Origin: Marispirochaeta aestuarii
GTDB taxonomy: Bacteria > Spirochaetota > Spirochaetia > JC444 > Marispirochaetaceae
DNA length: 64,000 nt
Reading direction: 5' to 3'
NCBI RefSeq assembly: GCF_002087085.1
Contig: NZ_MWQY01000007.1
Span: forward strand, 62,001 to 126,000
Every line of letters starts with the position of its first letter. Position 1 is the stretch's first letter. Under the pieces are notes generated by a model, which made no database searches, was not told the DNA's origin, and saw only the letters and a list, made by a program, of their open reading frames with translations. The translations under genes were made by a program, and so were the position numbers. Positions 16,316 through 57,153 of the stretch are shown piece after piece.

Positions 16316-18304
16316 TCAGTCTTTACTGCCGGTCCGCTTTTTTGAAGCGGCTTTTTTAGATTGTAGCCCGCTTTTTCCGTTCCCGCCAGTACTCTGACGA
16401 ACGAATTTGGCGCTCCGGACCTCCTTGGCGGCCAGACGCACACCCCCGGCCTTGACGCCCTTGACGACAAAATCCTCAAGCGGAAAAGTCTCTTCCAGAA
16501 TCTTCATGCGCGGTTTGGGTTTATAACTGACCTGAACACCCACCTTCTCCTTCTGGGTGGTCAGTTTTATACCCAGGGCATCCTCAGGAATCAGGGTATA
16601 GCCCTTGTTCAGAATGTACTGTTCAATCCTGCAGCGTTTGATATAGGCATAGCGGGTGGCCTTATCAACATACAGGACAGTAAAGACCAGCTTGGCAAGG
16701 CGTTCCTTTTCCGCAAGAACGCAACACAGCATTCCTTTGTCAACAAAAAGACGCTCGGGAACATCGATTACCGAATAGGAGCCGTTCTTCCGTATAACCA
16801 GGACCCTGTCATAGGGGGAAACCTGGAACATTACCTTGCCGGTTTTAATTCCGTACCCCAGGTAGCCGGTATCCGGATCATAACGCAGGTCCAGGTCACG
16901 CTGAGCCGCCTCCCGGACATCGACCTTCTCGAAGGATTTTATCGTCGACAGCCTGGGATAGACAGAACCGTGGTCCTCAATAAGCCTGTCCAGGAAGCCC
17001 AGGGCATAGCCGGTCAGGTCCTTCAGATTGGCCCGTACCTCCTTGAGCCGGGCATCCAGCTCCTGGAGTTCCCTGCGGGCCTTTTCGATATCATACAGTG
17101 AGATACGGCGAATCGGGATTTTCAGGAGACGTTCAACGTCCTCGTCGGTCACCTCCCTGCGAATCTCGTCCTGAAAAGGTTCAAGCCCCGTGTGCACCGC
17201 CTTCATGACGCCGCTCTGGGTCTTTTTGTCCTCTATACGCTTGTAGATCCGTTCCTCGATAAAGATTCTCTCCAGGGTCCGGGCATGGATCTTGTCCCTG
17301 AGCCGCCCTTCTTCGATCTTCAGTTCCGCCTTCAAGACCTTGATGATGAACCCTGCATGAAACTCTATGATCTTTGAAATCGGTACCAGGACCGGCTTAT
17401 TGTCTATAATGACCAGGGAATTGACGGAGATGGAGGTTTCACAGTCGGTAAAGGCATAGAGGGCATCCAGTACCTCCTGGGTATGGACCCCACGGGCAAG
17501 TTTTATCTCGATCTCTACATTTTCCGCCGTATAATCGCTGATGCTGCCGATCTTGAGCTTGCCTTTCCGGGCGGCATTCTCCACCGAAGCGATCAGGGTA
17601 TCCGAAGTCGTCCCGAAGGGTAGCTCCCGCACCACGATACGCTTGGGATCCGAGGTGTCCAGCTTGGCCCTGACCAGGACCTTTCCCATTCCGTCCTGAT
17701 AGTCGGCCACATCTATAATCCCGCCGGTGGGAAAATCGGGATACAGGGTCATTTTCTCCCCCTTAAGGGCAGCTTTGAGAGCCTCCAGGACCTCGACAAA
17801 GTTATGGGGGAGGATCCTGGTGGACATACCCACCGCAATCCCTTCGGTCCCCTGAATCAGCACCACCGGAATCTTGGCGGGGAAAATCAGAGGCTCCCTG
17901 TTTCGGCCGTCGTAGGAATCGTCGTAATCGGTTATCTCGGGAAAATAGAGGACCTTTTTTGCAAGAGGCAGGAGCCGACACTCGATATATCGGGCCGCAG
18001 AGGCCGGATCCCCGGTATAGATGTTCCCGAAGTTCCCCTGTTTCTCGATAAAGAGGTCCTTGTTGGCCAGGACCACGAGGGCGGAGTAGATCGAGGCGTC
18101 CCCATGGGGATGGTACTTCATGCAGTGGCCAACGACATTTGCCACCTTGTGGAATTTACCGTCGTCCATCTCGAAAAGGGAGTGGAGAATCCGGCGCTGA
18201 ACCGGCTTGAAGCCATCCTCGATATTGGGAATAGCCCGGTCCTTGATAACGTAGGAGGCGTACTCCATAAAGTTGCTGTCGAAAAGCTTCTGTACGTAGG
18301 CCAT
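16316..18304 (-). CDS. parC: DNA topoisomerase IV subunit A
   Basis: A 662-residue DNA cleavage subunit of a type IIA topoisomerase that decatenates or relaxes DNA with ParE. The winged-helix 5Y-CAP region holds YHPHGDASIYSALV (64-77) and the catalytic Arg105-Tyr106 in AARYIECRL. The coiled-coil tower and GyrA-like core reach about residue 480; the C-terminal beta-pinwheel is short, as in ParC and not GyrA, and lacks a GyrA box. It starts with TAATG overlapping the parE stop. The divergent AARYIECRL (GyrA has AAMRYTEVRL) fits the spirochaete/Bacteroidetes ParC branch. Confidence 0.93.
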   Translation of the reverse strand: MAYVQKLFDSNFMEYASYVIKDRAIPNIEDGFKPVQRRILHSLFEMDDGKFHKVANVVGHCMKYHPHGDASIYSALVVLANKDLFIEKQGNFGNIYTGDPASAARYIECRLLPLAKKVLYFPEITDYDDSYDGRNREPLIFPAKIPVVLIQGTEGIAVGMSTRILPHNFVEVLEALKAALKGEKMTLYPDFPTGGIIDVADYQDGMGKVLVRAKLDTSDPKRIVVRELPFGTTSDTLIASVENAARKGKLKIGSISDYTAENVEIEIKLARGVHTQEVLDALYAFTDCETSISVNSLVIIDNKPVLVPISKIIEFHAGFIIKVLKAELKIEEGRLRDKIHARTLERIFIEERIYKRIEDKKTQSGVMKAVHTGLEPFQDEIRREVTDEDVERLLKIPIRRISLYDIEKARRELQELDARLKEVRANLKDLTGYALGFLDRLIEDHGSVYPRLSTIKSFEKVDVREAAQRDLDLRYDPDTGYLGYGIKTGKVMFQVSPYDRVLVIRKNGSYSVIDVPERLFVDKGMLCCVLAEKERLAKLVFTVLYVDKATRYAYIKRCRIEQYILNKGYTLIPEDALGIKLTTQKEKVGVQVSYKPKPRMKILEETFPLEDFVVKGVKAGGVRLAAKEVRSAKFVRQSTGGNGKSGLQSKKAASKKRTGSKD

Positions 18305-20115
18305 TAAATCAGGTTCTCCATTATATAATCCCGGCGCTCGGGGGTATTCTTACCCATAAAGAATCCCAGGGTATTGTTGATGTTTTTCAGGGATTTGATA
18401 TTGACCTTGACCAGGCGTATATCCGGCCCGATGAACTGCCCGAACTCCTTCGGAGAGATCTCTCCAAGCCCCTTGAAGCGGGTAACCTCGGGGGAACTTA
18501 TCTGCTGCAGCGCCTCTTCCTTCTCCCTGGGGGAGTAGCAGTAGCGGGTCTCCTTCTTGTTGCGCACCCGGAACAGGGGAGTCTCCAGGATATAGACCCT
18601 TTCGGAGACCACAAGCTCCTCAAAGAAGGTCAGAAAAAAGGTCATCAGCAGGTTGCGGATATGAAAACCGTCATGGTCGGCATCGGTGGCTATTACAACC
18701 CGGCCGTACCGCAGCCCCTCGATTCCGTTCTCTATTCCCAGGGCCATCATCATGTTGTAGAGCTCTTCGTTTTTATAGATGTCAGCGCGCTTGCGGGAGT
18801 ACATGTTCTGACACTTGCCACGAAGGGAGAATATGGCCTGGGTATAGGGGTCACGACTGGATACCATGGAGCCTGACGCGGAGGCCCCTTCGGTAATAAA
18901 GAGGGTCGACTCATCCCCCTTTTTGTCTCCCAGGTGATACTTGCTGTCCTTGAGGTTGGGGATCTTCAGGGCGATCTTTTTCGCTGCCTCCTTGGCCTCT
19001 TTCTTGACCGCATTCAGTTCCTTGCGGAGCTTCTCGTTGGAGACGATCTTCTCTTCCAGTCGCTTGGAGGCGGAATTGTTCTTGTGCAGGAAGTCCACCA
19101 CCCCGGATTTTACCTCACCGACGATCCATCCGCGGATTTCCGTATTCCCCAGCTTGTTTTTTGTCTGGCTTTCAAAGATGGGATTGGTCAGCTTGACGGC
19201 TATGGCTCCGGCGATACCGTCCCGGACATCCACGCCGGAGTAGTTCTTCTTATAGAACTCGTTGACCCCTTTCAGGATCCCCTCCCGGAAGGCGCTCTGA
19301 TGGGTACCTCCGTCGGAGGTGAACTGCCCGTTGACGAAGGAAAAGTAGGTTTCCCCGTAGTTCTGGGTATGGGTAAAAGCGAACTCGATGCGGTCTCCCT
19401 TGAAGTAGGCCTCGTCATAGATTCTGTCCTCCCCCACCTCGGCATTCAGGAGATCCTTGAGACCATTGGCGGAATAGAACTTCTGCCCGTTCAGAACCAG
19501 GGTAAGTCCCGAGTTCAGGCAGGCGTAATTCCAGAAGCGCTGCTCAATGTATTCCTGGTTAAAGGCGTATTCCCCAAAAATTTCCGAATCGGGAACAAAC
19601 TCAACCAGGGTGCCGTTCTTCTCAGTGCTCTTTCCCTCCTTGCTGTCCAGCAGGGAACCCCGGGAGAAGGAAGCCTGAAAATACCTGCCCTCACGAAAAC
19701 TGGTAACGGTAAAGCTGGAAGAGAGGGCATTGACCGCCTTGGTTCCCACTCCGTTTAATCCTACGGAGAACTGAAACACCTCGTCGTTATATTTTGCCCC
19801 CGTATTGATGACGGATACACAGTCTATAACCTTGCCCAGAGGAATACCCCGTCCGTAATCCCGTACAGTGACCGTGTCTTTCTTGAGGGACATCTCGACA
19901 CGACTGCCATGGCCCATGATGTATTCGTCGATGGCGTTATCCACAACCTCCTTGATGAGGATGTAGATACCGTCGTCCATATTGGAACCGTCTCCCAGCC
20001 GCCCGATATACATACCCGTTCTGAGACGTATATGCTCGAGGGAACTGAGGGTTTTTATCTTGCTTTCGTCGTAGACGGCCTGCTTCTTTTCTGTCTGTAC
20101 TGCCTGTTTTGCCAT
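18304..20115 (-). CDS. parE: DNA topoisomerase IV subunit B
   Basis: A 603-residue ATPase subunit. The GHKL domain has E56-VVDNAIDE and DYGRGIP; the transducer has GGTHQSAFREG (269-279). The TOPRIM domain has Glu409 in TEGASASG, where gyrase has EGDSAGG, and the DxDxD metal triad at 478-482 in TDADHD. The EGASASG form is the one I associate with ParE of Bacteroidetes and spirochaetes. It heads the operon with parC and a large unknown gene. Its promoter lies about 40 bp upstream, just below a large tandem repeat array. Confidence 0.93.
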   Translation of the reverse strand: MAKQAVQTEKKQAVYDESKIKTLSSLEHIRLRTGMYIGRLGDGSNMDDGIYILIKEVVDNAIDEYIMGHGSRVEMSLKKDTVTVRDYGRGIPLGKVIDCVSVINTGAKYNDEVFQFSVGLNGVGTKAVNALSSSFTVTSFREGRYFQASFSRGSLLDSKEGKSTEKNGTLVEFVPDSEIFGEYAFNQEYIEQRFWNYACLNSGLTLVLNGQKFYSANGLKDLLNAEVGEDRIYDEAYFKGDRIEFAFTHTQNYGETYFSFVNGQFTSDGGTHQSAFREGILKGVNEFYKKNYSGVDVRDGIAGAIAVKLTNPIFESQTKNKLGNTEIRGWIVGEVKSGVVDFLHKNNSASKRLEEKIVSNEKLRKELNAVKKEAKEAAKKIALKIPNLKDSKYHLGDKKGDESTLFITEGASASGSMVSSRDPYTQAIFSLRGKCQNMYSRKRADIYKNEELYNMMMALGIENGIEGLRYGRVVIATDADHDGFHIRNLLMTFFLTFFEELVVSERVYILETPLFRVRNKKETRYCYSPREKEEALQQISSPEVTRFKGLGEISPKEFGQFIGPDIRLVKVNIKSLKNINNTLGFFMGKNTPERRDYIMENLI

Positions 20116-20183: not shown

Positions 20184-20261
20184 AGGGGAATTTTACACCC
20201 TCAAAAGCAGAGCAGTCACCATGAGCAGATCAGGCCTTTATTCAGGCATCCCGTTTTAAAC

Positions 20262-20940
20262 CTCTGCGTCCTCTGCGCGGCCCCTCCTCAACCATCCAGC
20301 TCCACACCGTGATACCGCATCCCCACCACTACCTCTGCGTCCTCCGCGCGGTCCTTACCCCGACCATCCAGCTCCACACCGTGATACCGCATCCCCGCCA
20401 CTACCTCTGCGTCCTCTGCGCGGCCCCTCCCCCAACCATCCAGCCATCAACGCAATACCGCACTTCCTCTTCCCAGACTCTGCGTCCTCCGCGCGGTTCC
20501 TCCACGACCATCCAGCTCCCCACCGTGATACTGCATCCCCGCCACTACCTCTGCGTCCTCTGCGCGGTCCCTCCACGACCATCCAGCTCCCCACCGCAAT
20601 ACCGCTTTCCCGCCACTACCTCTGCGTCCTCTGCGCGGCCCCTCCCCCAACCATCCAGCCATCAACGCAATACCGCACTTCCTCTTCCCAGACTCTGCGT
20701 CCTCCGCGCGGTTCCTCCACGACCATCCAGCTCCCCACCGTGATACTGCATCCCCGCCACTGCCTCTGCGTCCTCTGCGCGGTCCCTCCCCGACCATCCA
20801 GCTCCCCACCGTGATACCGCATCCCCGCCACTACCTCTGCGTCCTCTGCGCGGTCCTTACCCCGACCATCCAGCCATCAACGCAATACCGCACTTCCTCT
20901 TCCCAGACTCTGCGTCCTCCGCGCGGTCCCTCCCAGAGTG
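20262..20940. repeat. Tandem array of nine 71-73-bp units in A-A-B trimers
   Basis: Units start at 20262, 20333, 20405, 20478, 20549, 20620, 20693, 20764 and 20835, with a partial unit from 20908. Each begins CTCTGCGTCCTCTGCGCGG or a close variant, followed by an ACCATCCAGC core. Type A (71-72 bp) continues CTCCCCACCGTGATACCGCA; type B (73 bp) continues CATCAACGCAATACCGCACT. The order is A A B, A A B, A A B, so a trimer of 215-216 bp is itself repeated three times. The B units at 20405 and 20620 are identical over 73 bp. The plus strand is C/T-rich. It sits between the tkt terminator and the parE promoter. Open frames through it on both strands are a by-product of composition. Confidence 0.9.
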
Positions 20941-20972: not shown

Positions 20973-21013
20973 AAAAAAACCGCAGGCAGGAACTCATACA
21001 TCCCCGCCCGCGG
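20973..21013 (-). terminator. Intrinsic terminator of transketolase gene
   Basis: Minus strand CCGCGGGCGGG pairs with CCTGCCTGCGG (11 bp, two G-U pairs) around an 11-12-nt loop, followed by seven T residues. It is 31 nt past the tkt stop. Confidence 0.88.
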
Positions 21014-21043
21014 CCTTATATAAACGCTATTGAACGCTTTACT

Positions 21044-23005
21044 TTACAGCAGCTTTGCCAGGTTCTCCGGAACAAAGCCGAAATGCTTTTCCACGTCTCC
21101 TGCGGGTCCGGACTCACCAAAGGACTTCATACAGAGCACAGAATCCGCGTCGCTGGCAATTCCTTCCCAACCGTTGACAATCCCCGTCTCAGCCACGACG
21201 GTCTTTACGCCTTCCGGCAGAATGGACTTACGGAAAGCCGCATCCTGCTTAAGAAAGGTCTCCCGGGAAGGCATGGAAACCACCCGTACCTTTTTGCCGG
21301 ACATATCCGCAGCTTTCAGTGCCAGATTGACCTCGGAACCCGTTGCAACCAGCACCACGTCGGGCATACCGTCGACCTCTTTGACTATGTAGGCCCCTTT
21401 GCGCATGGTTTTCTGCCAGTCCTTGTCCGCCTTCTCGTAAACGCTCAGGTTCTGCCGGGTCAAAGCAAGGGCCACCGGTCCGTCGGTCTTTTCCAGAGCC
21501 ATCTCCCAGGCAACGTTGGTCTCCTCACCGTCTCCGGGTCGCAGGACGGTCATGCCGGGAATAATCCTCAGGGACTCCAGGTGCTCCACCGGCTGATGAG
21601 TAGGCCCGTCCTCGCCCACGTAGATGGAGTCGTGGGTAAACACATAGGTAACCGGCAGCTTCATCAGGTTCGCCAGCCGTACCGGGGGCCGCATGTAGTC
21701 GGCAAATACCAGGAAGGTGGCGCAGAAGGTACGCAGACCTCCGTGAAGGGCAATACCGTTGGCAATGCCCCCCATGGCATGTTCCCGGACACCGAAACGC
21801 AGGGTTCTGCCGGAGCGGTTCTCCCGGCTGTAATCCCCTTGTCCAAGGCCGGTCTTGTTGGAAGGCTCAAGGTCCGCCGAACCGCCCATAAAATTACCCA
21901 GGGCTGCGGCAATCGCCTTCATGGCGGAACCCGATGCACTCCGGGTTGCCGCTGAATCACCCACCTTGTACTCAGGCCACTTGATACCCGAAAGGTCGGG
22001 AATCCCGGCCATCCACTGATCCCACTCCTTCTTCAGCTCCGGGTTTGCCTTCGCCCAGGCGTCAAAAACAGCCTGCCATTCATCCTGGGCGGCCTGAAAA
22101 TCAGCCTTTTTGCCCTTGAAGTATTCAACGGCCTTCGGAGCAATGTAGAATTCAGCATCCTCAGGAATTCCCAGGTTTTTCCGGGTAGCTTTCACCTCAT
22201 CCGTCCCCAGGGGTGCGCCGTGAACATCATGGCTGCCCGCCTTGTTGGGCGACCCTTTACCGATTACCGACTTCAGGATAATCAGGCTGGGCTTTCCGCC
22301 CTCGGCCTTCGCCTTCTCAATCAGCCCGGCCATCCCCGCAAAATCGTACATGTCACCTTCCAGGACCTGCCAGTTGTAGGCCCGGTAGCGATCGGCGACG
22401 CTCTCGGTAAAGGTAATGTCGGTATTCCCCTCTATGCTGATCTTGTTGGAGTCGTAAAAAACGATCAGCCTGCCCAGTCCCAGGTGTCCCGCCAGGGAAG
22501 CCGCCTCGGAGGTGATCCCCTCCATCATGCAGCCGTCTCCGGACAGGGCGTAGGTGTAATGGTCCACCACTTTGTGTTCAGAGGTATTGAACTTCGCAGC
22601 CAGCATGGACTCCGCAATCGCCATTCCCACGGCATTGGAGAATCCAGCTCCCAGGGGACCCGTGGTAGTCTCGACCCCGTCGGTCCAGCCGTACTCCGGG
22701 TGTCCCGGGGTTTTCGAACCGAGCTGCCGGAACTTCTTCAGCTCCTCCAGAGGCAGCTTGTAGCCCGACAGATGCAGCAGGCTGTAGAGAAACATCGAGC
22801 CGTGGCCCGCGGAAAGAACAAAACGATCCCGGTCAAACCACCCGGAATCAGCGGGATTGTGCTTTAAAACTTCGCCGTACAGCAGTGCCCCGAGCTCCGC
22901 GCAGCCCATGGGAAGCCCCGGATGCCCGGAGTTCGCCTTCTGGACACCGTCCATCGACAGGGCGCGTACGCTCAATGCAACGGCCTTCAGGGAATCAATA
23001 TGCAT
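21044..23005 (-). CDS. tkt: Transketolase
   Basis: A 653-residue thiamine-diphosphate enzyme of the non-oxidative pentose phosphate pathway, moving two-carbon units between sugar phosphates. It has the full three-domain layout: N-terminal TPP-binding domain with HPGLPMGCAELG and the GDGCMMEG-x-N type motif (GDGCMME ... DSNKISIEG), a pyrimidine-binding domain with RFGVREHAMGGIANGIALHGG and THDSIYVGEDGPTHQP, and a C-terminal domain ending FGFVPENLAKLL. The ATG at 23005 follows CGGAGGT by 6 nt; an in-frame start at 23038 lacks support. It is transcribed away from thioredoxin and has its own terminator. Confidence 0.96.
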   Translation of the reverse strand: MHIDSLKAVALSVRALSMDGVQKANSGHPGLPMGCAELGALLYGEVLKHNPADSGWFDRDRFVLSAGHGSMFLYSLLHLSGYKLPLEELKKFRQLGSKTPGHPEYGWTDGVETTTGPLGAGFSNAVGMAIAESMLAAKFNTSEHKVVDHYTYALSGDGCMMEGITSEAASLAGHLGLGRLIVFYDSNKISIEGNTDITFTESVADRYRAYNWQVLEGDMYDFAGMAGLIEKAKAEGGKPSLIILKSVIGKGSPNKAGSHDVHGAPLGTDEVKATRKNLGIPEDAEFYIAPKAVEYFKGKKADFQAAQDEWQAVFDAWAKANPELKKEWDQWMAGIPDLSGIKWPEYKVGDSAATRSASGSAMKAIAAALGNFMGGSADLEPSNKTGLGQGDYSRENRSGRTLRFGVREHAMGGIANGIALHGGLRTFCATFLVFADYMRPPVRLANLMKLPVTYVFTHDSIYVGEDGPTHQPVEHLESLRIIPGMTVLRPGDGEETNVAWEMALEKTDGPVALALTRQNLSVYEKADKDWQKTMRKGAYIVKEVDGMPDVVLVATGSEVNLALKAADMSGKKVRVVSMPSRETFLKQDAAFRKSILPEGVKTVVAETGIVNGWEGIASDADSVLCMKSFGESGPAGDVEKHFGFVPENLAKLL

Positions 23006-23116
23006 AAATTTACCTCCGAAATTTTGAATACTCAGCATATATTGTTATACTCTAAATGAACGAAGAGTTGAAGGCCCGTCATAAAATCCCACATATACAG
23101 ATGTACCGCCAAGGTA

Positions 23117-26226: not shown

Positions 26227-26451
26227 TTATATATTCAAGAAATCATCAGTATCCACACCGGCCTGTTTCAAAATTGCCTTCATGGTACCTTCCGGAATAT
26301 CCCCTGGGTGATTAGGAATTGTGGTTCGCGCTCTTGTTTGCTTATTCCACCATATCTCGTGGCTTCCACGCGCACCCCTGTCAAATTCAAAGCCGAGTTT
26401 TCTGAGTTTCTTTATACATTTTTTATAATTGAATCCAGCAAGCCGACCCAT
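26227..26451 (-). CDS. hicA: HicA-type mRNA interferase toxin
   Basis: A 74-residue dsRBD-like HicA/YcfA protein. The catalytic His31 is in RGSHEIWW, and the family signature IPNHPGDIPEGTMKAILKQAG covers residues 45-65. It would cleave mRNA in the cytoplasm when free of HicB. It starts immediately after the hicB stop (TAAATG), so translation is coupled. The stretch is visibly AT-richer than the flanking housekeeping genes, consistent with horizontal acquisition. Confidence 0.92.
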   Translation of the reverse strand: MGRLAGFNYKKCIKKLRKLGFEFDRGARGSHEIWWNKQTRARTTIPNHPGDIPEGTMKAILKQAGVDTDDFLNI

Positions 26452-26694
26452 TTATACGCCAACAGGAACATCAAGTTCAAACCTATCTGTAAGTGGTTTT
26501 AACGAATGTGGGATTGGGTCCCCATGATCCATATAGGATTCAATAAGTTTTCGGGCGACATCTTGAGCGATTTCCACAGCTTCAGGAATGGTACGCCCCT
26601 GTGCTACCAGACCGGGAATGTCATCAGACTGGGCAAGGAACTGCCCATTTTCAACCTTGGAAATCATCAAGTGAATTGAGTAAAGCTTTTCCAT
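26452..26694 (-). CDS. hicB: HicB-type antitoxin
   Basis: An 80-residue HicB-fold protein (partially degraded RNase H fold): IHLMISKVENGQFLAQSDDIPGLVAQG, then TIPEAVEIAQDVARKLIESY. The usual C-terminal DNA-binding helix or ribbon is short here. It neutralises HicA and probably represses the operon. Antitoxin precedes toxin. The ATG is 6 nt from a TATATT -10 box and has no Shine-Dalgarno, so the message is probably leaderless. Confidence 0.88.
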   Translation of the reverse strand: MEKLYSIHLMISKVENGQFLAQSDDIPGLVAQGRTIPEAVEIAQDVARKLIESYMDHGDPIPHSLKPLTDRFELDVPVGV

Positions 26695-26907: not shown

Positions 26908-27030
26908 CCTCTGCGTACTCCGCGCGATTCCCATCCCTACAATCGCAGCGTTCTGCCGTGTTAGAGAACTCTTTCTCCCCTCCCTCAGCGGACTCTGCGT
27001 GGTCCTTCTCCTGACCATCCAGCTTCTCCC
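26908..27030. repeat. Dispersed copy of the CTCTGCG repeat family
   Basis: Two degenerate units: CCTCTGCGTACTCCGCGCG at 26908, and ACTCTGCGTGGTCCTTCTCC followed by GACCATCCAGCTTC near 26993-27025. The second half matches the 20.3-kb array unit (GCGCGGTCCTTACCCC, then GACCATCCAGCTCC). Same orientation as the array. The rest of 26730-26907 shows no gene. Confidence 0.7.
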
Positions 27031-27053
27031 ATATTTACGCATTGGAAATCCAG

Positions 27054-27325: not shown

Positions 27326-27398
27326 ATCACAGAAAACGCAGATACTTCGTCCCTCCAGGCAGTAAATCCGCCGAACTTCCGGTGTTTTATCTATACGG

Positions 27399-27512
27399 CC
27401 TCTGCGCGGTTCCTATACCGACTATCGCAGCAGTCCTACCGTGGTGGCGCACTCCTTCTCTCCTGCCTCAGCGTACTCCGCGCGGTCTTTCTCGCTTCCT
27501 GGACTTATATGC
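27399..27512. repeat. Dispersed copy of the CTCTGCG repeat family
   Basis: CCTCTGCGCGGTTCCTATAC at 27399, followed by CGACTATCGCAGC, and a second CTCAGCGTACTCCGCGCGG about 70 bp on. A further shared module, CCTTCCCATCATCCCCATC with TTTGTTCCC, is at about 27542-27570 and recurs near 30889 and 31771. Together with 27326-27398 this fills the gap up to the lipoprotein gene; no other gene is seen. Confidence 0.7.
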
Positions 27513-30929: not shown

Positions 30930-31253
30930 CTAATCAACAAGCATTTCCTGCAGTACGGATTTAATCTTCTCGATCTCCTTTTTCCTGACTATACCAAGCT
31001 TCCTTATTAAACGTGACTGGTCCACAGTTCGCAACTGATCAAGTACTACCCAGCCGTTCTTTCCTTGGAAATGCACTGAAACTCTGGTGGGGTAGCTATG
31101 AGATTTTGTAGTCATAGGTGCAATAATAACTGTCTTGATCGAGGAATTCATTTCGTTTGGAGAAACAACCAGGCATGGCCTCGTTTTCTGAATTTCATGC
31201 CCGATGGTGGGATCAAGATTAACAAGAAAAACCTCATATTGGCGTATTACCAT
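30930..31253 (-). CDS. mazF: MazF/PemK-type endoribonuclease toxin
   Basis: A 107-residue toxin with the family signatures: EVFLVNLDPTIGHEIQKTRPCLVVSP at the N-terminus, VIIAPMTT, and GWVVLDQLRTVDQSRLI. It cleaves mRNA at short sites when MazE is lost. The start can be ATG 31253 or 31259; both overlap the antitoxin reading frame (EWEW end), so expression is coupled. Confidence 0.93.
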   Translation of the reverse strand: MVIRQYEVFLVNLDPTIGHEIQKTRPCLVVSPNEMNSSIKTVIIAPMTTKSHSYPTRVSVHFQGKNGWVVLDQLRTVDQSRLIRKLGIVRKKEIEKIKSVLQEMLVD

Positions 31254-31495
31254 TCCCATTCAAAGGATTCCTGATCAAGTATTTCTGGAAACATCAGAGC
31301 ATCATCTCCATTCTTATGCATCTCTGTAAAAGCCTCTTCCCAGCCCTCCCGTGGTCTGGTTTTAACAGGTTTGATCAGAATCTCCTTATCCCGGACTTCC
31401 AGTTCAACCTTTTCATCAATCTCAAGCTGCTTAAGGATACCCTTGGGGATTCTTATGCCTTTTGAATTACCAATGGGAATTACCGATATTATCAT
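31247..31495 (-). CDS. mazE: MazE/AbrB-type antitoxin
   Basis: An 82-residue antitoxin with a SpoVT/AbrB swapped-hairpin DNA-binding domain (VIPIGNSKGIRIPKGILKQL, KVELEVRDKEILIKPV) and an acidic C-terminal tail that would thread over MazF. ATG 31495 follows GAGGGA; a GTG four codons upstream overlaps that site. It overlaps mazF. A perfect 7-bp inverted repeat over the -10 box is a plausible self-repression operator. Confidence 0.9.
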   Translation of the reverse strand: MIISVIPIGNSKGIRIPKGILKQLEIDEKVELEVRDKEILIKPVKTRPREGWEEAFTEMHKNGDDALMFPEILDQESFEWEW

Positions 31496-31512
31496 GCCGT
31501 CCCTCACTATCT

Positions 31513-31770: not shown

Positions 31771-31935
31771 TCTATCCTTCCCATCCTCCCCATCTTTGTT
31801 CCCTGTTTCCGTTTCTCCCTCCTCTTCCTCTGCGTACTCTGCGCGGTTCCTACCCCGACTGTCACTGCGTTCCGCCGTAATAACGCTGCCCCTTTCTACT
31901 CCCTCAATGTTCTCCGCAACTCCGTGGCAACCTCT
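31771..31935. repeat. Dispersed copy of the CTCTGCG repeat family
   Basis: Begins with CCTTCCCATCCTCCCCATC and TTTGTTCCC, then CCTCTGCGTACTCTGCGCGG at 31827 followed by TTCCTACCCCGACTGTC, and ends with CTCAATGTTCTCCGCAACTC plus CGTGGCAACC. It abuts the 3' end of manC. Same orientation as the other copies. The rest of the gap back to mazE (31545-31770) holds a degenerate AT-rich stretch with CTCACAAAGCTCACAAAG near 31617 but no gene. Confidence 0.7.
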
Positions 31936-47896: not shown

Positions 47897-47925
47897 AGCA
47901 TAATCCAAAAGAGCATCCGCCGCAA
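47897..47925 (-). promoter_or_regulatory. Promoter of the CDF gene
   Basis: Minus strand TTGCGG (47920-47925), 17-bp spacer, TATGCT (47897-47902), then 6 nt to the ATG. Confidence 0.4.
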
Positions 47926-47940
47926 TATACACACCGGGGT

Positions 47941-47969
47941 TTGCTTTTACCCTGCCCGGGACGTACAAT
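47941..47969 (+). promoter_or_regulatory. Promoter of the small exported protein gene
   Basis: TTGCTT (47941-47946), 17-bp spacer, TACAAT (47964-47969). Leader of about 22 nt with GAGGAG. Confidence 0.55.
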
Positions 47970-47997
47970 TTAATAATCACACAATGAGGAGTGAAGC

Positions 47998-48372
47998 ATG
48001 AAAAAAACACTGTTTATCCTGGTTCTACTTACATTCTCCCTGATGTTCCTGAGCGCCGAAGGCATCGACATGGGCGACTTCCCCGTCGGTACCTGGCTGG
48101 ATCCCAATTACGACGCGGTCTGGGAACTGTCGGTGGAGAACATCCGGATCCTCGATACATCGGAAAACGTATACTTCGATTTTTCCGAAGCCACGGTGGA
48201 AGACTTTGACGTATCCGGCGGCATGAGCGGCCTGACCGTCTCCTTCTCCTGCCCGGAGACCGGCAAGTTCTACAAGCTTACCAAACCGGTATCCATGGGT
48301 ACGGCGATTGTTCTGGAGATCGAACGCTCGGATTATCCCGACTACAGGGTCGAAATGCCCTTCCGCAAGTAG
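47998..48372 (+). CDS. Small exported protein
   Basis: A 124-residue protein with a signal peptide (MKKTLFILVLLTFSLMFLSA) and a mature domain of about 100 residues, acidic and beta-rich (VGTWLDPNYDAVWELSVENI resembles lipocalin-like or DUF-type strands starting GTW). No lipobox Cys. GAGGAG lies 6 nt before ATG. It has its own promoter and converges on the cyclase gene. Family unknown. Confidence 0.8.
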   Translation: MKKTLFILVLLTFSLMFLSAEGIDMGDFPVGTWLDPNYDAVWELSVENIRILDTSENVYFDFSEATVEDFDVSGGMSGLTVSFSCPETGKFYKLTKPVSMGTAIVLEIERSDYPDYRVEMPFRK

Positions 48373-48393
48373 AAGGGGCTGCACGGTTCTGAA

Positions 48394-50052
48394 TTATTTT
48401 GAGGTCATGACCGATTCCCCCTGCCAGTCTGCGGGGGGAGGGTTCCTGAAAAAATCTTCACTGCGCTTCCGGTACATTTTCGCCGGATAATCCCGGGGGA
48501 GCAGCTCCAGTACCCGCTCAAAGCGCTTTCCCGCTTCGGCGAAATCCCGCCGGATATACAGGTCCATGGCCGCGTGGTAGATCTCCCAGGCCTCTTTCTC
48601 CTTCTCGGACAGGGACTCCCGTACAGTGTAGATGCGTACGGCGGAACTTTTTCCCTTTACGATTACCCTGTCAATCAGCCTGCAGGGATAGCTTGACGCC
48701 ACCCGCTGCTGAACCGACTCGGAGACGATTATCGGCTCATGGTAAATCTTGGTAAGTCCTTCCAGCCGGGAGGCAAGGTTTACCATGTCACCGATGACGG
48801 TATAGTCCATCTTCTTTTCCGACCCGATGTTCCCCACCGTCACGACACCGTAATTTATGCCGATGCCGATCCTGAAGGGCGGCATGCCCAGACTGCGCTG
48901 CCGTCTGTTGAAGACCTCCAGGGAGGACAGCATCCCGAGCCCCGCCTCCACCGACAGAAGGGCATCGTTGTCACCCTTCACCGGGGCGCCGAAGAAGGCC
49001 ATGATGGCATCCCCGATATACTTGTCGACGATGCCGTTCTTTGCGAGGACTACATCCACCATCTTCTCAAAATAGCCGTTCAGGGACTCCACAAGCACAT
49101 CCGGAGACATATTCTCGGAAATCGTGGTAAAGGAACGGATGTCGGAAAAGAGCACCGCCATCACCCGGTTGTCCCCCTTCAGCATCGATTCCGGGGCCTC
49201 CTCGAACTGTTCAATCACATTATTGGGAACGTATTTCTGGAAAATATGGCGAATTCGTGTTTCCCGGTTTTTCGCCAGGACCATTTCGTAGGCGTACTTC
49301 TTTATCTGAGAGTAGGCTTTATCCAGCTCCCCCGTCATAAGGTTAAAGTAATGCCCCAGCTGGCCGGTCTCGTCCTGGTACTGGAGACTTACCTTTTTTG
49401 ACAGGTCCCCCGTGGAGATGATCTCCCGGATGACATCCACCATCGCATTCAGAGGGCGGGTAAGGATATTGGAGAATACAATCAGAAGGGCTGCTGCCGC
49501 AGCCAGGGAGAGAATCAGGATTATCGCCGTACGACGGTAAATCTGGCCCAGAGCGGCATAGAAGACCTCCTCCTTTTCCGTACTGAGAATGTACCAGTCA
49601 AAGGGGGCAAAGAATGCGGCCTGGCCTACATAGGATTCCCCTGCGAGACGCAGCCTCCGCCAGCCTTCCAGTTCCTTCGCAAAGCTTTCAGCCAGAGATT
49701 CCTGCTCCGCCGGAGAAAGCTCTATCTTCCGGGTAGCCAGTACGGGACTGCCCGTCCTGTCCACAGCAAGGATGAGCTCGGTATCGCTGCGGATTATGGT
49801 GCCCGCAAAGCTCGAGACGGCTTCTTTTGCCGCAGCAACGAACTCCGGATCAGAATCAAAGCCGTTGTTCATCAGCAGGTCCCACTGGCTGCGGGCATAG
49901 TTGAGAACGGTATCATTCTTAAAACGCAGGAACTCCGCGGCTATTATACTTATACCGTTGCGTGCCGATAATGAAGAGACGAGGACCGTCATTAAAAGAG
50001 GCGTCATCAACAGGGGCAGGACAATCAGAATGATCTTTCGCCGTATGGTCAT
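48394..50052 (-). CDS. HAMP-containing class III adenylate/guanylate cyclase
   Basis: A 552-residue inner-membrane receptor cyclase: helix 1 (5-27), an extracytoplasmic sensor of the dCache/sCache type (about 30-175, with AAFFAPFDWYILSTEKEE), helix 2 (177-197), HAMP (198-250), a coiled signalling helix, and the cyclase domain (about 295-480). Metal-binding Asp304 (LFSDIRSFT) and Asp348 (DKYIGDAIMAFFGAP) are 44 residues apart as in active enzymes. The substrate-binding Lys in EKKMDYTVIGDMVNLASRLE points to ATP. The tail (480-552) is helical, TPR-like. The TATACT box leaves a leader of about 5 nt. Confidence 0.93.
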   Translation of the reverse strand: MTIRRKIILIVLPLLMTPLLMTVLVSSLSARNGISIIAAEFLRFKNDTVLNYARSQWDLLMNNGFDSDPEFVAAAKEAVSSFAGTIIRSDTELILAVDRTGSPVLATRKIELSPAEQESLAESFAKELEGWRRLRLAGESYVGQAAFFAPFDWYILSTEKEEVFYAALGQIYRRTAIILILSLAAAAALLIVFSNILTRPLNAMVDVIREIISTGDLSKKVSLQYQDETGQLGHYFNLMTGELDKAYSQIKKYAYEMVLAKNRETRIRHIFQKYVPNNVIEQFEEAPESMLKGDNRVMAVLFSDIRSFTTISENMSPDVLVESLNGYFEKMVDVVLAKNGIVDKYIGDAIMAFFGAPVKGDNDALLSVEAGLGMLSSLEVFNRRQRSLGMPPFRIGIGINYGVVTVGNIGSEKKMDYTVIGDMVNLASRLEGLTKIYHEPIIVSESVQQRVASSYPCRLIDRVIVKGKSSAVRIYTVRESLSEKEKEAWEIYHAAMDLYIRRDFAEAGKRFERVLELLPRDYPAKMYRKRSEDFFRNPPPADWQGESVMTSK

Positions 50053-50063
50053 AGATACTTTTG

Positions 50064-50091
50064 AGTATAAACTCTATTTCCCGGGAGTCAA
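50064..50091 (-). promoter_or_regulatory. Promoter of the cyclase gene
   Basis: Minus strand TTGACT (50086-50091), 16-bp spacer, TATACT (50064-50069); ATG is 11 nt beyond the -10 box. Confidence 0.6.
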
Positions 50092-50124
50092 CCTGTGTAA
50101 TGCCGGCAGCCGGAGCCGTTTATA

Positions 50125-52140
50125 ATGGGAAGCCTTCTTTCACGGGCCCGGATGCTCCGGGAGAGACCCCTCCATCCTTCTCAAGGTCTTCTGAGGAAGG
50201 CCCGAAGCCTCCAGGAACGAATCACCGGAAGACCTTCCGCAGATATTGAATCCCTCGACCCGCGGCGGACAAAAGAGCAGGAAATCATGGCGGAGATGGA
50301 CTCCATCCTGGAACAGAACCGTCTTGCCATAACCGATGAGACCCTGAAGTTCTCTGCCCTCTCCTCGGGCGCCCGTTTCCCTGTCATACTGAACCTGACC
50401 GCCGCAGTCCTGATGCTTGTCGTCGGAACAGGCCTCTTTTTCCTCTTCAACCGGGGAGAGGCATCACAGGTCGACCCTGCCGGGCGAATCAGTTCCGCGG
50501 AAAGCAGGATAATTTCCGCCGTGAGGGAGGAATCCCGCCAGGAACTGGCCCGCAAGGAAGAAGAGATCAATTCCATAAACCGGCAGCTCCGGCAAGCCCA
50601 GGAGGCCAGGGTCGCCCTGATCGCCGAAACAGAAAACGAGCTGTTGCGCAGGGAGGCCCAGCTGAAGGAAGAGATGTCCCGGGAACTCGAGGCGGAGCGC
50701 CGGCGCCTTCTGGCAGCCGGACTCGACCAAGTCGACCTCGATGAACAGCTCTCCCGCTACCGGGAGCAGCAGCAGGGGGAATACGAGGAACAGCTCGCCG
50801 CGGTAAACGCCGAACTCGAAGCCCGCCTGGAAGAACGCTCCGCGGAACTGAACCAGCAGATGGAGGAGTACCGGCAGGCCCTGAGCAGCGCCAGAACAGA
50901 ACAGGAAAGTATCCAGGAAAGGCTTGCCACGGCCAGGGATGAGGCTGCCCGGGCTGTTCAAGAGGCCGGGGCCGACCGGAGTGCCGCCCTGAACAGGCTG
51001 GAGACCCTCAATCGGCAGCAGGGTCAGAAAACTCTCGTGGAGGAGCATCTTCTGTCCATGTATGACGGCGTCAATACACAGCTGCAGCGGGGAGAATACC
51101 GGGAAGCCTCTCTGCAGCTCGATCGGATAGAGGAATTTATCAACAGTAGCGCCGCCGAAACCATAATGGTTCTGAATAACAGAATGGAAGTCGAACAGTT
51201 TCTTCTAGGCTCCCTGCGCCGCCTTATTGCCGTTGAAGCCGGCACAGGCGGGGAGCTTCCACGCTTCGGCCCTCTGCTGGCATCCGTCTCCGCCAGGGTT
51301 GAAGAAGGCAACCGTCTCTTCAGTGAAGGAAATCTGGAAGAGGCCGGGAAGGCCTATACTGAAGCCCTGAACACAATACCGGAGATTGAAACCGGCTATG
51401 CCCGTCTTCAGGAGATAGAGGAAGGTCAGCTGGCCCGGGAGCGCAGTCTTCTCGAAGAACGCCTTGCAGAAGGGGACAGGCTCTACCGGGAAGCCAGGTA
51501 CCAGGCTTCCGTGGACCGCTACCGGGAAGCCCTGGGAATTCTGGAAAGGCAGGCGCCGCCCCTGGATCAGCTGGTTACCCATCTGATGGACGCGGGCTAT
51601 CATTTACGCAGTGAAAACGAGGCACAGCCGGAACCGGTAATCATTACCAGGGTCATCAGGGAAGAGATCCCCGCAGAAGATACCGCACGTATCGAGAAAG
51701 CCAGGGCTGAGGAGGAAAGACGCCGGCTGCTCCTGGAACAGCTTGACCTGCTCCGCTCAAGATATGCAGAGGGCTCCTCGACGCAAGAGTCAAAAGCTTC
51801 CCGGCAAGCCCTCATTACTCTGTTGAACACCAAGCTGCTTATCCGGCAGGCCCTGGCCAGCGAAGAGGTCCGCAGGCAGTATCCCGATCTCTACAGGAAC
51901 GCTGATGAAGTTCTTGATATGTATGGCGTGGAACAGCGCCGGGAAGGTAAAACCGAAGCCCTCCGGGATGTCGTGGCCATTACCGATTACCTGGAGAACA
52001 ATCCTTCCAGTTCCCCCCCCACGGCCACCGCGGAAAGTGCCCGCCAGCGGGAGCTTCTGCTGCAGTTTCTGGAGAACCTGAAAGAGCTGCTGGGAGAAAA
52101 ACCGACAAAAAACCCCGATTATTCCTCTCCAGAAATGTAG
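50125..52140 (+). CDS. Coiled-coil/TPR-like membrane protein
   Basis: A 671-residue protein. The N-terminal 84 residues are basic and cytoplasmic, one membrane helix lies at about 86-111 (VILNLTAAVLMLVVGTGLFF), then a long Glu/Arg/Gln-rich coiled coil (about 120-310) and a helical region with TPR-like pairs (VEEGNRLFSEGNLEEAGKAY; LAEGDRLYREARYQASVDRY). The single-helix plus long coiled-coil design suggests a structural or scaffold protein of the cell envelope with a large extracytoplasmic part; no family named. Its last 22 nt overlap the 3' end of the convergent CARDB lipoprotein gene. Divergent from the cyclase gene. Confidence 0.8.
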   Translation: MGSLLSRARMLRERPLHPSQGLLRKARSLQERITGRPSADIESLDPRRTKEQEIMAEMDSILEQNRLAITDETLKFSALSSGARFPVILNLTAAVLMLVVGTGLFFLFNRGEASQVDPAGRISSAESRIISAVREESRQELARKEEEINSINRQLRQAQEARVALIAETENELLRREAQLKEEMSRELEAERRRLLAAGLDQVDLDEQLSRYREQQQGEYEEQLAAVNAELEARLEERSAELNQQMEEYRQALSSARTEQESIQERLATARDEAARAVQEAGADRSAALNRLETLNRQQGQKTLVEEHLLSMYDGVNTQLQRGEYREASLQLDRIEEFINSSAAETIMVLNNRMEVEQFLLGSLRRLIAVEAGTGGELPRFGPLLASVSARVEEGNRLFSEGNLEEAGKAYTEALNTIPEIETGYARLQEIEEGQLARERSLLEERLAEGDRLYREARYQASVDRYREALGILERQAPPLDQLVTHLMDAGYHLRSENEAQPEPVIITRVIREEIPAEDTARIEKARAEEERRRLLLEQLDLLRSRYAEGSSTQESKASRQALITLLNTKLLIRQALASEEVRRQYPDLYRNADEVLDMYGVEQRREGKTEALRDVVAITDYLENNPSSSPPTATAESARQRELLLQFLENLKELLGEKPTKNPDYSSPEM

Positions 52141-55100
52141 ATAGTATAGGGTATCTCATAGGCTGGATTCCCATATACAATATACTCGTATGACTCAATC
52201 CCGACATATGCTGTCTCCGGAGGTATCCATCCAGTAACACTGAGACTCCCGATATCCGGCTCACGATCTGCAACATTATCCGCGCTGATGAAATCACTCT
52301 TAAAATCATCCCAGAGGTGCAGTGCGCCAGCATCATCACCTGTTGACCATACAGCGTATGAACTTATAGTGCTGATCCCGGGCTCCAGATCGAAGGAGAA
52401 GGTATCGTATTTGTCATTCAGGGCGGAATCATCGAGCCATCCCCGCACAACCAGGGTCTGTCCGACTTCAAGACTGCCGATATACTGGGTATTAGGAATT
52501 GGCGTGCCCGAAGGGTTCGGGCTTGGACCTGAACCATCATTAGAAAGGCCTGAATGATCGGCCCCTTCGGAATCAACGAAATACAACTCCACTGCCGAAG
52601 ATATATATTTGTTGTTCAAAAGGATATGATCATCCGAAGCGCTTATACGCACAAGGATGTAACAGCGACCGTACGCCGGCCAGCTGCTTATATCCAGATC
52701 CTCCGCATGAATGGAAAAACTATCTCCTGCATCCAGGGGACTCTCAGAACCGGAACCGATCTCCAGATCATCATCGCTGAAGCCCGTATCGAAGCTCAAA
52801 AAGACCTCCCAGAAGATGTTTTTTCTTCCATCTCCGCTCCCGCTGTTCTCTAGTATAAATCCGCCGGTAACTGAAGTGCCTGCCTCTGCCTCAAGGGGAA
52901 AGGTTACGGACTGAATCTCGTAATCAGGAGGATCGCTGACGGTAAACCTGCCGGCGGATACGGCGTAATCATCGGGATTAATCTCGTCAGGGGCCTGTAC
53001 TTCTATAATCAGGTAGTACTCCCCTGGCGTCGCGGGCCAGACAGCCCCCAGAGTCGGAATATTGGACAAGGTCTGCCCGCCGTTCAAAGGCCCCACCGTT
53101 CCGCTTCCGATCTCCTCCCCCGCATCAGGGACCGCGTTATAGGAAGCATAAGCGGTCCAGGTCACATTTTCCGAGCCGTTGGTTCCGATATTGGCAATAC
53201 TGAAACTCTCCTCCACAGGACTGCCGCCGGTCACATACGGGGCATACATGCTTATGTCGCTGACCGTGTAATCGGGATCGCTTGCCCCGGGGTCCGTGAC
53301 ATTGTACGTACTGCTGCTGGCCCGAATGTTGTTGCTGGTATTGACCTCGTCCGCCGCCTGCAGGCGCACCAGGATATACCAGTTACCCGCAGCCGGCCAG
53401 GATCCCTCGTTAATCGGAATGGAAGCGGAGCTTGCTTCGGATCCCAGGGCGGAAAAACTGCCGCTGTCCACCAGGATGTCCCCGGCATTGTACACCTGGT
53501 CAGCGGAGATATAGGCGGACCATTCCACCGGAGAGCTGCCGGCGTCGGTCCCCTGATTTCTGGCGGTGAAACTGGCCGACACCGTATCTCCCACCTGGGC
53601 ACTGCCCCCGGACGGCGCCAGGGACACATAATAATCCACATCGGATCCGGCACTGACCGGCTGCACGCTGAAAGCAGCGCTGACAAACCACTCGTTCGGC
53701 GTAACTTCATCATCCGACCACTCCCGGACCTTCAGGTACCAGGTTCCGGCCGTCGCAGGCCAGAAGCCCGCCAGGGAAACAACAGCGCTGTCCCCTCCGG
53801 CAAGTGCTGACTCGCTGTCGGAATCGATTATACGATCTCCGCCGCTCAAACCGGGACTGTTGTCCTGGGATACCCAGGCGGCCCAGTTTACGCTGGTCCC
53901 GCCGTCGTCAAGGCCGTCGTTCAGCAGGGTAAAGCTTTCGCCCATGGCTGAACCCGCATCCGGTGTCGGGTCGACGGCGGTAAAACTGTCCACAATATAT
54001 TCTATGTCCCCCGCCGGGGGAGGAGGAAACTCGCTGACGATAATCGTCGCCTGGTCACTCCAGCCGTAGGCATTGTCAGTTACCTCCAGCACATCCGTTC
54101 CGGCGGAGTTTCCGGCGGTATAGCTGTCCCCCGTCATGGAAGGCGAGCCCGAATCCGACTGGCTGAAGGAGTAGGAATAGGTCCCTCCGCCCCTGCCGCC
54201 GCTTATTTCAAAATCGACACTCTGCCCCACATACACCGATGCCACCGCCGGGCTGATCGACAGGGGAGCAACTATTTCCGTACTCCCTGCCGACCGGTTC
54301 CGGTTGTCCCCGGTCTCCAGGTCGTCGGCGGCATATACCTCTACCAGCAGGTAATAATCTCCCGGTTCCGAAGGCCATGTGCCGCCGGTGCCGTCGGATA
54401 ACCGGACCGTGCTCCCGGGGCCGGTGGGCAGCCCTCCGGAGATCGATCCGGAGGCGACGATCCGGTCGTCGGCACCCCCAATGGAAGTGTCCGTACTGGC
54501 GTAGACCGTCCAGTTGATGTCCCTGGAACCATCAGCGGTCCCATGGTTTATTATCGTGAACTCCGCGTCGAAAGAGCTGCCGGTGAGTATATCCACGGAA
54601 ACGATGTTAAGAATTTCCCCTGCCTCGTAATCAACACTCGTCGCGGAATCAACCACCGTTACCGTCGCTGGCCGGGTCCTGCCGTCGTAGCCGTCGGTCA
54701 GGGTTACCGTATCGGTGCCCGGAGTCGGGCCCGCGGTATAGACGTTACCCGCAAGGGATCCGCCGCTCTGATTATGTGCGGGTACCATGAATGCAAAGCT
54801 GAAGGCCCCGTCCCCGCCGACGGCATTGAATGTAATCGACTGGTTCACATAGACCGTAATAATCTCCGGGCTTATGGAGAGGGGTTTGGCCTGAACAGAG
54901 ATCGTCGCCGTGGCGGAATCCCCCAGACTGTCGGTAACCGTGATTATGTCGGTCACCATATTTGACCCGTCGGATGGCCCTGCGGCGTAAGAATATGACG
55001 ATACTCCGCTGGCCGGGGCACTGGGAGAAAAGGATCCGTTGCTGGTGACTTCGAAACTGAATGGTCCGGTTCCCCCGACGGGAGAGAAATTTATTCCGTC

Positions 55101-55493
55101 GCCGGTATAGACGGTCTGACTTGCAGGGCTGATTCCCAGCGCCAGGCCGGGATTGTTAATGGTAAACTCCCCGTACACGCTGGTGCCGGCCTGATCCCTG
55201 ACCCTGATTACCGTCAAGCCCGGACTCGCGGGGGCCGAGAAGACATTGCCGGTAAATCCGCCGTCTCCGGATACCAGTCCGTAGCTGTAGGGAGGGATTC
55301 CTCCGGAGGTATCCACAGGAAGGCTGTCCCCGATCTGCAGCACCGCCGAGGTGGGAGAAATGCTCAGGGCCTTCCCGTCGGGACCGTCCACCAGCTCTTC
55401 CAGGCTAAAGGGTTCCTGGCAGGAGATCAACAGGAGTGTTAAAGACAGTAATAGAGTGATGTTATAGACGATCCTCGTACGAAAAAACAACAT
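52119..55493 (-). CDS. Large Ig-like/CARDB repeat lipoprotein
   Basis: An 1124-residue exported lipoprotein: lipobox LLLISC with lipidated Cys25. Four Ig-like modules begin with a SISPxxxxVxxGxS-type strand near residues 44, 121, 206 and 412. Five CARDB-like modules (about 290-405, 497-610, 618-730, 735-850, 855-965) each end in a recurring A-x-DE-x-x-x-DN-type turn (YAADDLETGDNRN, QAADEVNTSNNIRA, QAPDEINPDDYA). The C-terminal 140 residues look like a PPC-type beta domain ending IPYTIYISGEE. Such proteins serve adhesion or surface assembly; ligand unknown. SCQEPFSLEELVDG is almost repeated in the small paralog upstream. GGAG lies 7 nt before the ATG. Confidence 0.85.
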   Translation of the reverse strand: MLFFRTRIVYNITLLLSLTLLLISCQEPFSLEELVDGPDGKALSISPTSAVLQIGDSLPVDTSGGIPPYSYGLVSGDGGFTGNVFSAPASPGLTVIRVRDQAGTSVYGEFTINNPGLALGISPASQTVYTGDGINFSPVGGTGPFSFEVTSNGSFSPSAPASGVSSYSYAAGPSDGSNMVTDIITVTDSLGDSATATISVQAKPLSISPEIITVYVNQSITFNAVGGDGAFSFAFMVPAHNQSGGSLAGNVYTAGPTPGTDTVTLTDGYDGRTRPATVTVVDSATSVDYEAGEILNIVSVDILTGSSFDAEFTIINHGTADGSRDINWTVYASTDTSIGGADDRIVASGSISGGLPTGPGSTVRLSDGTGGTWPSEPGDYYLLVEVYAADDLETGDNRNRSAGSTEIVAPLSISPAVASVYVGQSVDFEISGGRGGGTYSYSFSQSDSGSPSMTGDSYTAGNSAGTDVLEVTDNAYGWSDQATIIVSEFPPPPAGDIEYIVDSFTAVDPTPDAGSAMGESFTLLNDGLDDGGTSVNWAAWVSQDNSPGLSGGDRIIDSDSESALAGGDSAVVSLAGFWPATAGTWYLKVREWSDDEVTPNEWFVSAAFSVQPVSAGSDVDYYVSLAPSGGSAQVGDTVSASFTARNQGTDAGSSPVEWSAYISADQVYNAGDILVDSGSFSALGSEASSASIPINEGSWPAAGNWYILVRLQAADEVNTSNNIRASSSTYNVTDPGASDPDYTVSDISMYAPYVTGGSPVEESFSIANIGTNGSENVTWTAYASYNAVPDAGEEIGSGTVGPLNGGQTLSNIPTLGAVWPATPGEYYLIIEVQAPDEINPDDYAVSAGRFTVSDPPDYEIQSVTFPLEAEAGTSVTGGFILENSGSGDGRKNIFWEVFLSFDTGFSDDDLEIGSGSESPLDAGDSFSIHAEDLDISSWPAYGRCYILVRISASDDHILLNNKYISSAVELYFVDSEGADHSGLSNDGSGPSPNPSGTPIPNTQYIGSLEVGQTLVVRGWLDDSALNDKYDTFSFDLEPGISTISSYAVWSTGDDAGALHLWDDFKSDFISADNVADREPDIGSLSVTGWIPPETAYVGIESYEYIVYGNPAYEIPYTIYISGEE

Positions 55494-55520
55494 ACCGGCA
55501 CTCCAAAAACCTTCTTATCA

Positions 55521-55549
55521 AGTATCGATTACCATTATTAATATTTCAA
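55521..55549 (-). promoter_or_regulatory. Possible promoter of the large CARDB lipoprotein gene
   Basis: Minus strand TTGAAA (55544-55549), 17-bp spacer, GATACT (55521-55526), 27 bp before the ATG. Confidence 0.45.
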
Positions 55550-55563
55550 GAGATGTCCTGATT

Positions 55564-56046
55564 CTAATTTCCTACAGAATACGGGCCACTGTTGTTTTTA
55601 TTGTTCGAGGTGTCATAATCGCTATAGTTTATCTCTACAATCACGTAATAGCCGGCTGCAGACACCGGCCAGTTACCGGAAAAACTAACCGTAGCAGGAA
55701 CATCCGTCAGCAGAGCCTCTCCTTGAGTTAAAAGAACCGGGTTATTCAGATTGTTCTTCGAAGTATAAACGGCCCACTGTATATCGAAGGAACCTTCGCT
55801 TAAACCGTTTTTTCCCAGGTTGAAGGTTCCCGTAATCTCACCGCCAGCTATATTTGGATCGGACGTCACAACCGGAGACATGACGTAATAGTCAAAAAAG
55901 GCCTCTTCCGCAGTTATCTCATCCCCTTCAAGGTTTCCGTCAACCACAGTCTCCAGGAAAAAAGGCTCCTGACAGGATAATACGATGAGACATAACAGAA
56001 GGACCTGCACTATCCGTGCCGGTAAGCCGTAGGCTTGCGGCCACAT
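55564..56046 (-). CDS. Small single-CARDB lipoprotein
   Basis: A 160-residue exported lipoprotein with lipobox LIVLSC (Cys25 or so) and one CARDB-like module (GEITGTFNLGKNGLSEGSFD, WAVYTSK, GYYVIVEINYSDYDTSNN). The start of its mature chain, CQEPFFLETVVDG, parallels that of the large lipoprotein downstream, so the two are paralogs. GGGGAG lies 7 nt before the ATG. It follows the barrel-protein gene by 27 nt, probably in one transcript. Confidence 0.82.
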   Translation of the reverse strand: MWPQAYGLPARIVQVLLLCLIVLSCQEPFFLETVVDGNLEGDEITAEEAFFDYYVMSPVVTSDPNIAGGEITGTFNLGKNGLSEGSFDIQWAVYTSKNNLNNPVLLTQGEALLTDVPATVSFSGNWPVSAAGYYVIVEINYSDYDTSNNKNNSGPYSVGN

Positions 56047-56073
56047 ATACTTACTCCCCTGCTGCGTGAGCAG

Positions 56074-57147: not shown

Positions 57148-57153
57148 AGGCAC

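Follow-up and report, generated by a model that had tools for sequence, protein, structure and literature searches.

Introduction

MITEs and other non-autonomous IS derivatives are short, dispersed and intergenic, and have inverted ends in common with a gene-bearing form. The same is true of the repeat family behind the tandem array analysed here, which lies between parE and tkt in Marispirochaeta aestuarii, within a 64,000-nucleotide stretch of contig NZ_MWQY01000007.1 (positions 62,001 to 126,000) that we refer to as the window. The likeness extends to numbers, since the gene-less versions of the family outnumber the gene-bearing form in some genomes. Unlike MITEs, however, this family has ends made of tandem 9-mers, which vary in number and expand into arrays, and its associated gene encodes a PD-(D/E)XK nuclease and no recognised transposase, with target site duplications (TSDs) in one cousin only. 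The units of the array also lack terminal inverted repeats, as they all have one orientation, whereas two other clusters of the family in the same genome, C2 and C12, have them.

REP elements and REPINs with their RAYT are likewise intergenic and multi-copy, form inverted pairs and are associated with a single gene family, but the M. aestuarii genome is without a Y1 transposase and the partner gene of the present repeats is GxxExxY. CRISPR-type arrays share with the window array a constant short core that alternates with longer spacers; this candidate was rejected because the spacers are not unique but copies of each other, the units being 70–100% identical to one another with spacers included. 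VNTRs, or minisatellites, resemble the array in their tandem units and higher-order duplication, but the array unit derives from a dispersed repeat family. Finally, the gene of the GxxExxY family (TIGR04256; PDDEXK_3, PF13366) is bracketed by the same type of repeat, while the window array is gene-less. In the open-access literature searched, GxxExxY is mentioned by just two papers, neither of which deals with repeats, and there is no account of a tie between these repeats and this nuclease.

Results

The array occupies positions 20262–20939 on the plus strand (~0.68 kb) and comprises nine units of 71–73 bp in the order A-A-B, repeated three times, followed by a partial tenth unit. The first trimer consists of units A1 (20262–20332, 71 bp, core at 20262–20280), A2 (20333–20404, 72 bp) and B1 (20405–20477, 73 bp), the second of A3 (20478–20548, 71 bp), A4 (20549–20619, 71 bp) and B2 (20620–20692, 73 bp), and the third of A5 (20693–20763, 71 bp), A6 (20764–20834, 71 bp) and B3 (20835–20907, 73 bp), while the partial unit (20908–20939) holds a core and 13 further bp. 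Every unit begins with its core, and all ten copies carry the form CTCTGCGTC-CTC(T/C)GCGCGG. Periods of 71, 144 and 215 bp were detected by TRF at 20260–20934, the 215-bp period with 93% matches and no indels. Mean identity between units is 0.94 at lag 3 and 0.79–0.81 at lags 1, 2, 4 and 5, and the lag-3 similarity exceeds that of shuffled unit orders (permutation P = 0.008).

TRF, the unit alignment and the lag-3 test thus bear out the A-A-B order that an earlier note had read from the letters of this DNA. The same holds for its finer observations: B1 and B2 are identical over 73 bp, A3 and A5 differ at a single base, and A2 and B3 are mosaics that both contain TCCTTACCCCGACC. Its proposals that a 215-bp trimer was duplicated recently and that units have exchanged sequence are backed by the unit alignment and the lag-3 test. 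The count of nine units stands, but the partial tenth at 20908 had been missed. As the assembly is a draft, the copy number of the array is uncertain.

Both neighbours of the array are encoded on the minus strand, a parE/gyrB-type topoisomerase gene at 18304–20115 and tkt (transketolase) at 21044–23038. A terminator-like hairpin is predicted downstream of tkt (20976–21017, minus strand), and the array lies, as had been described, downstream of this predicted terminator and upstream of parE (ATG at 20115). The earlier note had also suggested that G runs on the minus strand could form G-quadruplexes. Such runs are indeed present (25 G3 runs; mean G4Hunter score 0.90), but the canonical motif of four G3+ runs with loops of 1–7 occurs on neither strand of the array; that the array may form G-quadruplexes is therefore weakly supported. 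No known structured RNA in Rfam matches the array.

The 19-bp core consists of two 9-mers (consensus CTCWGCGNN followed by CTCWGCGYGG) and can be written as CTCTGCGTC, CTCTGCGC and a final GG. A genome-wide search for it, which the earlier note had proposed, located variants in about ten clusters across the 4.2-Mb genome, several of which are inverted pairs or tandem arrays. Within the window, 14 matches with at most 3 mismatches were found where 0.01 are expected by chance, and all 15 of the 15 window core copies are in the plus orientation. Outside the array these comprise copies at 26909–26927 and 27391–27409 (each with 3 mismatches), at 27467–27485 and at 26984–27040, the last with unit-like sequence downstream (GACCATCCAGCT), as well as a dispersed copy of the unit at 31817–31892, which is 76% identical to an array unit over 74 bp and has its core at 31828–31846. 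Some non-core parts of the 72-bp unit thus recur as well, at this last place and at window positions 27396–27487, which show 74% identity to an array unit. The two other window gaps that carry cores also hold toxin–antitoxin-type genes, namely HicA with a HicB-like partner (26227–26694) and a MazF/MazE pair (30930–31507); inverted bracketing of these modules by the repeats was significant for neither HicAB (P = 0.99) nor MazEF (P = 0.07).

The clusters elsewhere in the genome differ in their arrangement. In C2, which has a 151/304-bp array, and in C12, which has a 130-bp array and lies on either side of a GxxExxY gene, the orientation of the cores alternates between minus and plus, and these clusters are therefore chains of inverted pairs. 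Cluster C11 begins with inverted pairs, the last right end of which has been amplified fourfold in 73-bp units, and so shows an intermediate form. Cluster C16 comprises 34–41-bp arrays with 21 copies in one direction. The clusters outside the window adjoin unrelated genes, and C16 has copies inside a gene cluster. The view that such arrays are unusual in bacteria consequently does not hold for this genome, in which the arrays of C2, C11, C12 and C16 carry the same core. In both cases considered, the window (local GC skew −0.05) and C16 (L042; local GC skew +0.13, cores on the minus strand), the C-rich strand of the core is the strand of negative local skew.

Its parE relatives place the window in Marispirochaeta. 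The array unit has no match in either of two sister genomes, G001 and G002, and there is no conservation of sequence or size between the sister species. In G002, the three gaps that match core-bearing gaps of the window hold divergent CGCAGAG-type sequence, which in the parE-tkt gap includes an inverted pair (P = 0.022). In G001, the gap flanking parE contains a GxxExxY gene; tkt is not adjacent to parE in that genome, and the comparison of the gap is therefore one-sided. At L306 of G001 (767–1267 and 1717–1888), a GxxExxY gene lies between 9-bp-period arrays of AGGATGGGA, with 53 and 17 copies. Strings related to these, such as ATCCTCCCCATCTTTGTT, occur in the window near 27550, 30890 and 31770. 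The G002 counterparts of the HicAB and MazEF gaps measure ~345 bp, too short for those modules, and ~9.3 kb of the window (47902–57250) has no counterpart in the syntenic region of G002, which holds 53 bp there.

While the description of the array in the earlier note was sound, the link of its core to a dispersed family and to GxxExxY nuclease genes had escaped it. The M. aestuarii genome has 8 GxxExxY copies, and its sisters have 12 and 15 matches. In M. aestuarii a single core cluster, C12, surrounds a GxxExxY gene, and only one of the eight genes has CTCTGCG-type flanks, the rest having other end sequences. Across Spirochaetota, CTCYGYG is enriched ~11-fold within 250 bp of GxxExxY genes, with 79 occurrences in the 250 bp nearest the gene and 6–11 in each later 250-bp bin, and CTCYGYG dimers fall from 48 in that nearest bin to 0–4 per bin further out. 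The motif is inverted around the gene, 19 reverse and 4 forward on the left and 23 forward and 6 reverse on the right, where left and right denote genomic sides and some minus-strand loci were left unturned, which does not affect the inverted-pair test. In that test, the two flanks of the same gene match as inverted repeats better than mismatched pairs do, both in Spirochaetota (P = 0.0003) and in records from other phyla (Planctomycetota, Gemmatimonadota, Chitinispirillum-type, Nitrospinota and Latescibacterota, as named in the record titles; P = 0.0001), and they also match better than flanks drawn from different loci within one genome (P = 0.008). The best inverted ends match exactly over long stretches, as at L158, where 29 of 29 bp agree, and the gene-bearing bracketed units mostly measure 421–501 bp. 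The sequence of the ends varies (CTCTGTG, CTCCGTG, TTCGTGT, ATCTGCG and ATCCTG types), but the 9-mer plan is kept.

The repeats and the gene also co-occur at the level of whole genomes. Among 247 Spirochaetota genomes, those with a GxxExxY match over the cut-off carry a mean of 17.5 CTCYGYG dimers, compared with 1.4 in those without (MWU P = 1e-12, uncorrected for phylogeny and genome size), while the mean count of a reversed-pattern control is 0.5 and 0.26, respectively. The strict dimer is absent from 15 of the 56 gene-positive genomes, and eight gene-negative genomes have at least 10 dimers.

Tandem arrays accompany GxxExxY genes as well: of 65 genes, 16 have tandem repeats no more than 500 bp away, compared with 7 of 92 controls (P = 0.005) and with 7 of 65 when the far flanks of these loci are taken instead (P = 0.064). 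In a planctomycete record (L208), a GxxExxY gene is followed by a one-direction array of ~70-bp units with tandem CTCTGCG cores; this is the nearest counterpart of the window array. At L153, opposed arrays lie on both sides of the gene and the right one alternates longer and shorter sub-units, forming another higher-order structure. Amplification of ends into arrays is thus shown to happen both with and without a GxxExxY gene. Some loci have further features of their own. At C3 of M. aestuarii (L203, 5669–7952), two GxxExxY copies that are 90% identical lie 1.6 kb apart, with an apparent VapB/VapC-type toxin–antitoxin pair, recognised by eye, between them. At C8 (L206, 4085–6200), several hairpin-like mini-elements of ~70 bp (AACCACAGAATACACAG...CTGTGTTTTCCGTGGTT) lie beside a GxxExxY gene and have been tandemly duplicated together with neighbouring coding sequence. 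In a Sphingomonas plasmid record (L235, 2029–4193), a GxxExxY gene lies between fabD and fabG.

The GxxExxY gene encodes a protein of ~120 aa that Pfam assigns to PDDEXK_3 (PF13366) with E values of 1e-34 to 1e-42. The GxxExxY motif, D61, E71, K73, Q85 and Y89 are invariant in 25 of these proteins, which have the D...ExK and QxxxY residues of PD-(D/E)XK nucleases, and the protein is likely an active nuclease, as predicted from these residues. Matches to solved structures were non-significant only (T7 endonuclease I, E = 0.3). One query run against 50,697 phage records gave no match to GxxExxY, and a scan of viral contigs found no relative; a phage origin was rejected on these grounds.

Signs of transposition come from a cousin, a related element with different ends that is present in genome G165 in five dispersed copies of ~0.5 kb (L236, L237, L238, L239 and L242), mostly 90–97% alike. 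The copies end sharply in terminal inverted repeats and are flanked by 9-bp direct repeats, which match at 5, 9, 7, 3 and 8 of 9 positions; the copy scoring 5 reaches 8 after a shift of one base. Agreement between the flanks is 0.71 at length 9 and 0.15–0.37 at other lengths. GxxExxY is the only recognised gene of this element, stops interrupt some of the copies, and the end sequences are unlike the CTCYGYG ends. The 9-bp TSDs are found only in this cousin. No TSD of fixed length was found among 45 CTCYGYG-type pairs; the direct repeats that do occur in their flanks are for the most part due to arrays in which element and spacer are repeated together.

Discussion

Based on these results, we consider it likely that the array is one end of a GxxExxY-associated repeat element, amplified in tandem and devoid of the gene. 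That its core belongs to the GxxExxY-associated repeat type is well supported, and the core fits the plan of the GxxExxY ends, in which NTCNGYG-type 9-mers stand in tandem and the outer end is GG(T). As this repeat family brackets a small nuclease gene in several phyla, the array looks like the leftover of a mobile element. In its full form the element would be a GxxExxY gene flanked by inverted ends, which are built from two or three 9-mers in tandem; in this genome the 9-mers would be CTCWGCGNN, with YGG(T) at the outer end. We suggest that the parE-tkt gap may formerly have housed a whole element, that the nuclease would recognise or cut the 9-mer ends and might also move the element, and that break repair, or slippage and unequal exchange between ends, could have produced first the units of 72 bp and later the A-A-B trimers of 215 bp. 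In the window, the parE-tkt gap yielded neither a GxxExxY gene nor a relic, and no inverted partner end to the left of the array was significant (P = 0.87), the ends in the array being one-directional.

The trimer and the mosaic units are also what slippage and exchange would be expected to produce in an ordinary minisatellite, that is, in unique intergenic DNA amplified with no link to any element, and the array does sit in non-coding DNA. However, the core occurs at about ten unlinked places, where spacers differ and inverted pairs are present, and GxxExxY genes are bracketed by repeats of this type. These dispersed copies tell against the minisatellite as a full account of the array, and we disfavour it as quite improbable. 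The last amplification of the array may have occurred by slippage; indeed, slippage and unequal exchange suffice to explain the final amplification steps, and the amplification of the trimer is ordinary. It is more doubtful still that the array is a functional cis element kept between tkt and parE, whether it would bind protein, serve the nucleoid or insulate transcription, possibly via G-quadruplexes. Its place between a terminator and the region upstream of parE, the related-type sequence that fills the parE-tkt gap of G002 and the uniform orientation of the window cores would all suit such a function, but neither sequence nor size is conserved between the sister species, a canonical G4 motif and an Rfam match are both absent, and other core clusters lie beside unrelated genes or, as C16 does, within a gene cluster. 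The array probably has no required cellular role.

Two further explanations concern mobilisation. The repeats recall the architecture of REPs and REPINs in being short, dispersed, intergenic and arranged in inverted pairs; such elements would be mobilised by a RAYT (Y1 transposase). However, neither the M. aestuarii genome (G000, completeness 97%) nor G181, a genome with 88 copies of the motif, yielded PF01797, of which six other genomes have 1–4. We therefore reject this explanation for M. aestuarii itself, where PF01797 is absent, and give it hardly any credence overall. The repeats could also be scars of a DDE-type transposon, with GxxExxY genes and gene-less repeats as its passengers and the nuclease as cargo. 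Terminal inverted repeats together with 9-bp target duplications are the typical footprint of a DDE transposase, and the five copies in G165 display both; yet GxxExxY is the sole recognised gene of that element, and its ends differ from the CTCYGYG ends, which are without a fixed TSD. We regard this explanation as unlikely; it concerns the mover and is compatible with the derivation of the array from an amplified end of a GxxExxY-associated element.

What is out of the ordinary is that a repeat type and a nuclease, both of them widespread, are tied to one another. It connects a common, unexplained type of intergenic repeat to a common, unexplained nuclease family, and we propose that the repeats are the ends of the element. 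If the nuclease does the moving, the 0.5-kb copies in G165 would constitute a mobile element without a recognised transposase. More tentatively, and as a possibility that we hold with some doubt, GxxExxY proteins may be the nucleases of widespread minimal mobile elements of ~0.42–0.5 kb that spread and amplify their own 9-mer ends, and the gene-less offspring of these elements may account for a large part of the intergenic repeats with 9-bp periodicity (CTCTGCG, CTCTGTG, TTCGTGT, ATCTGCG and ATCCTG types) of several bacterial phyla.
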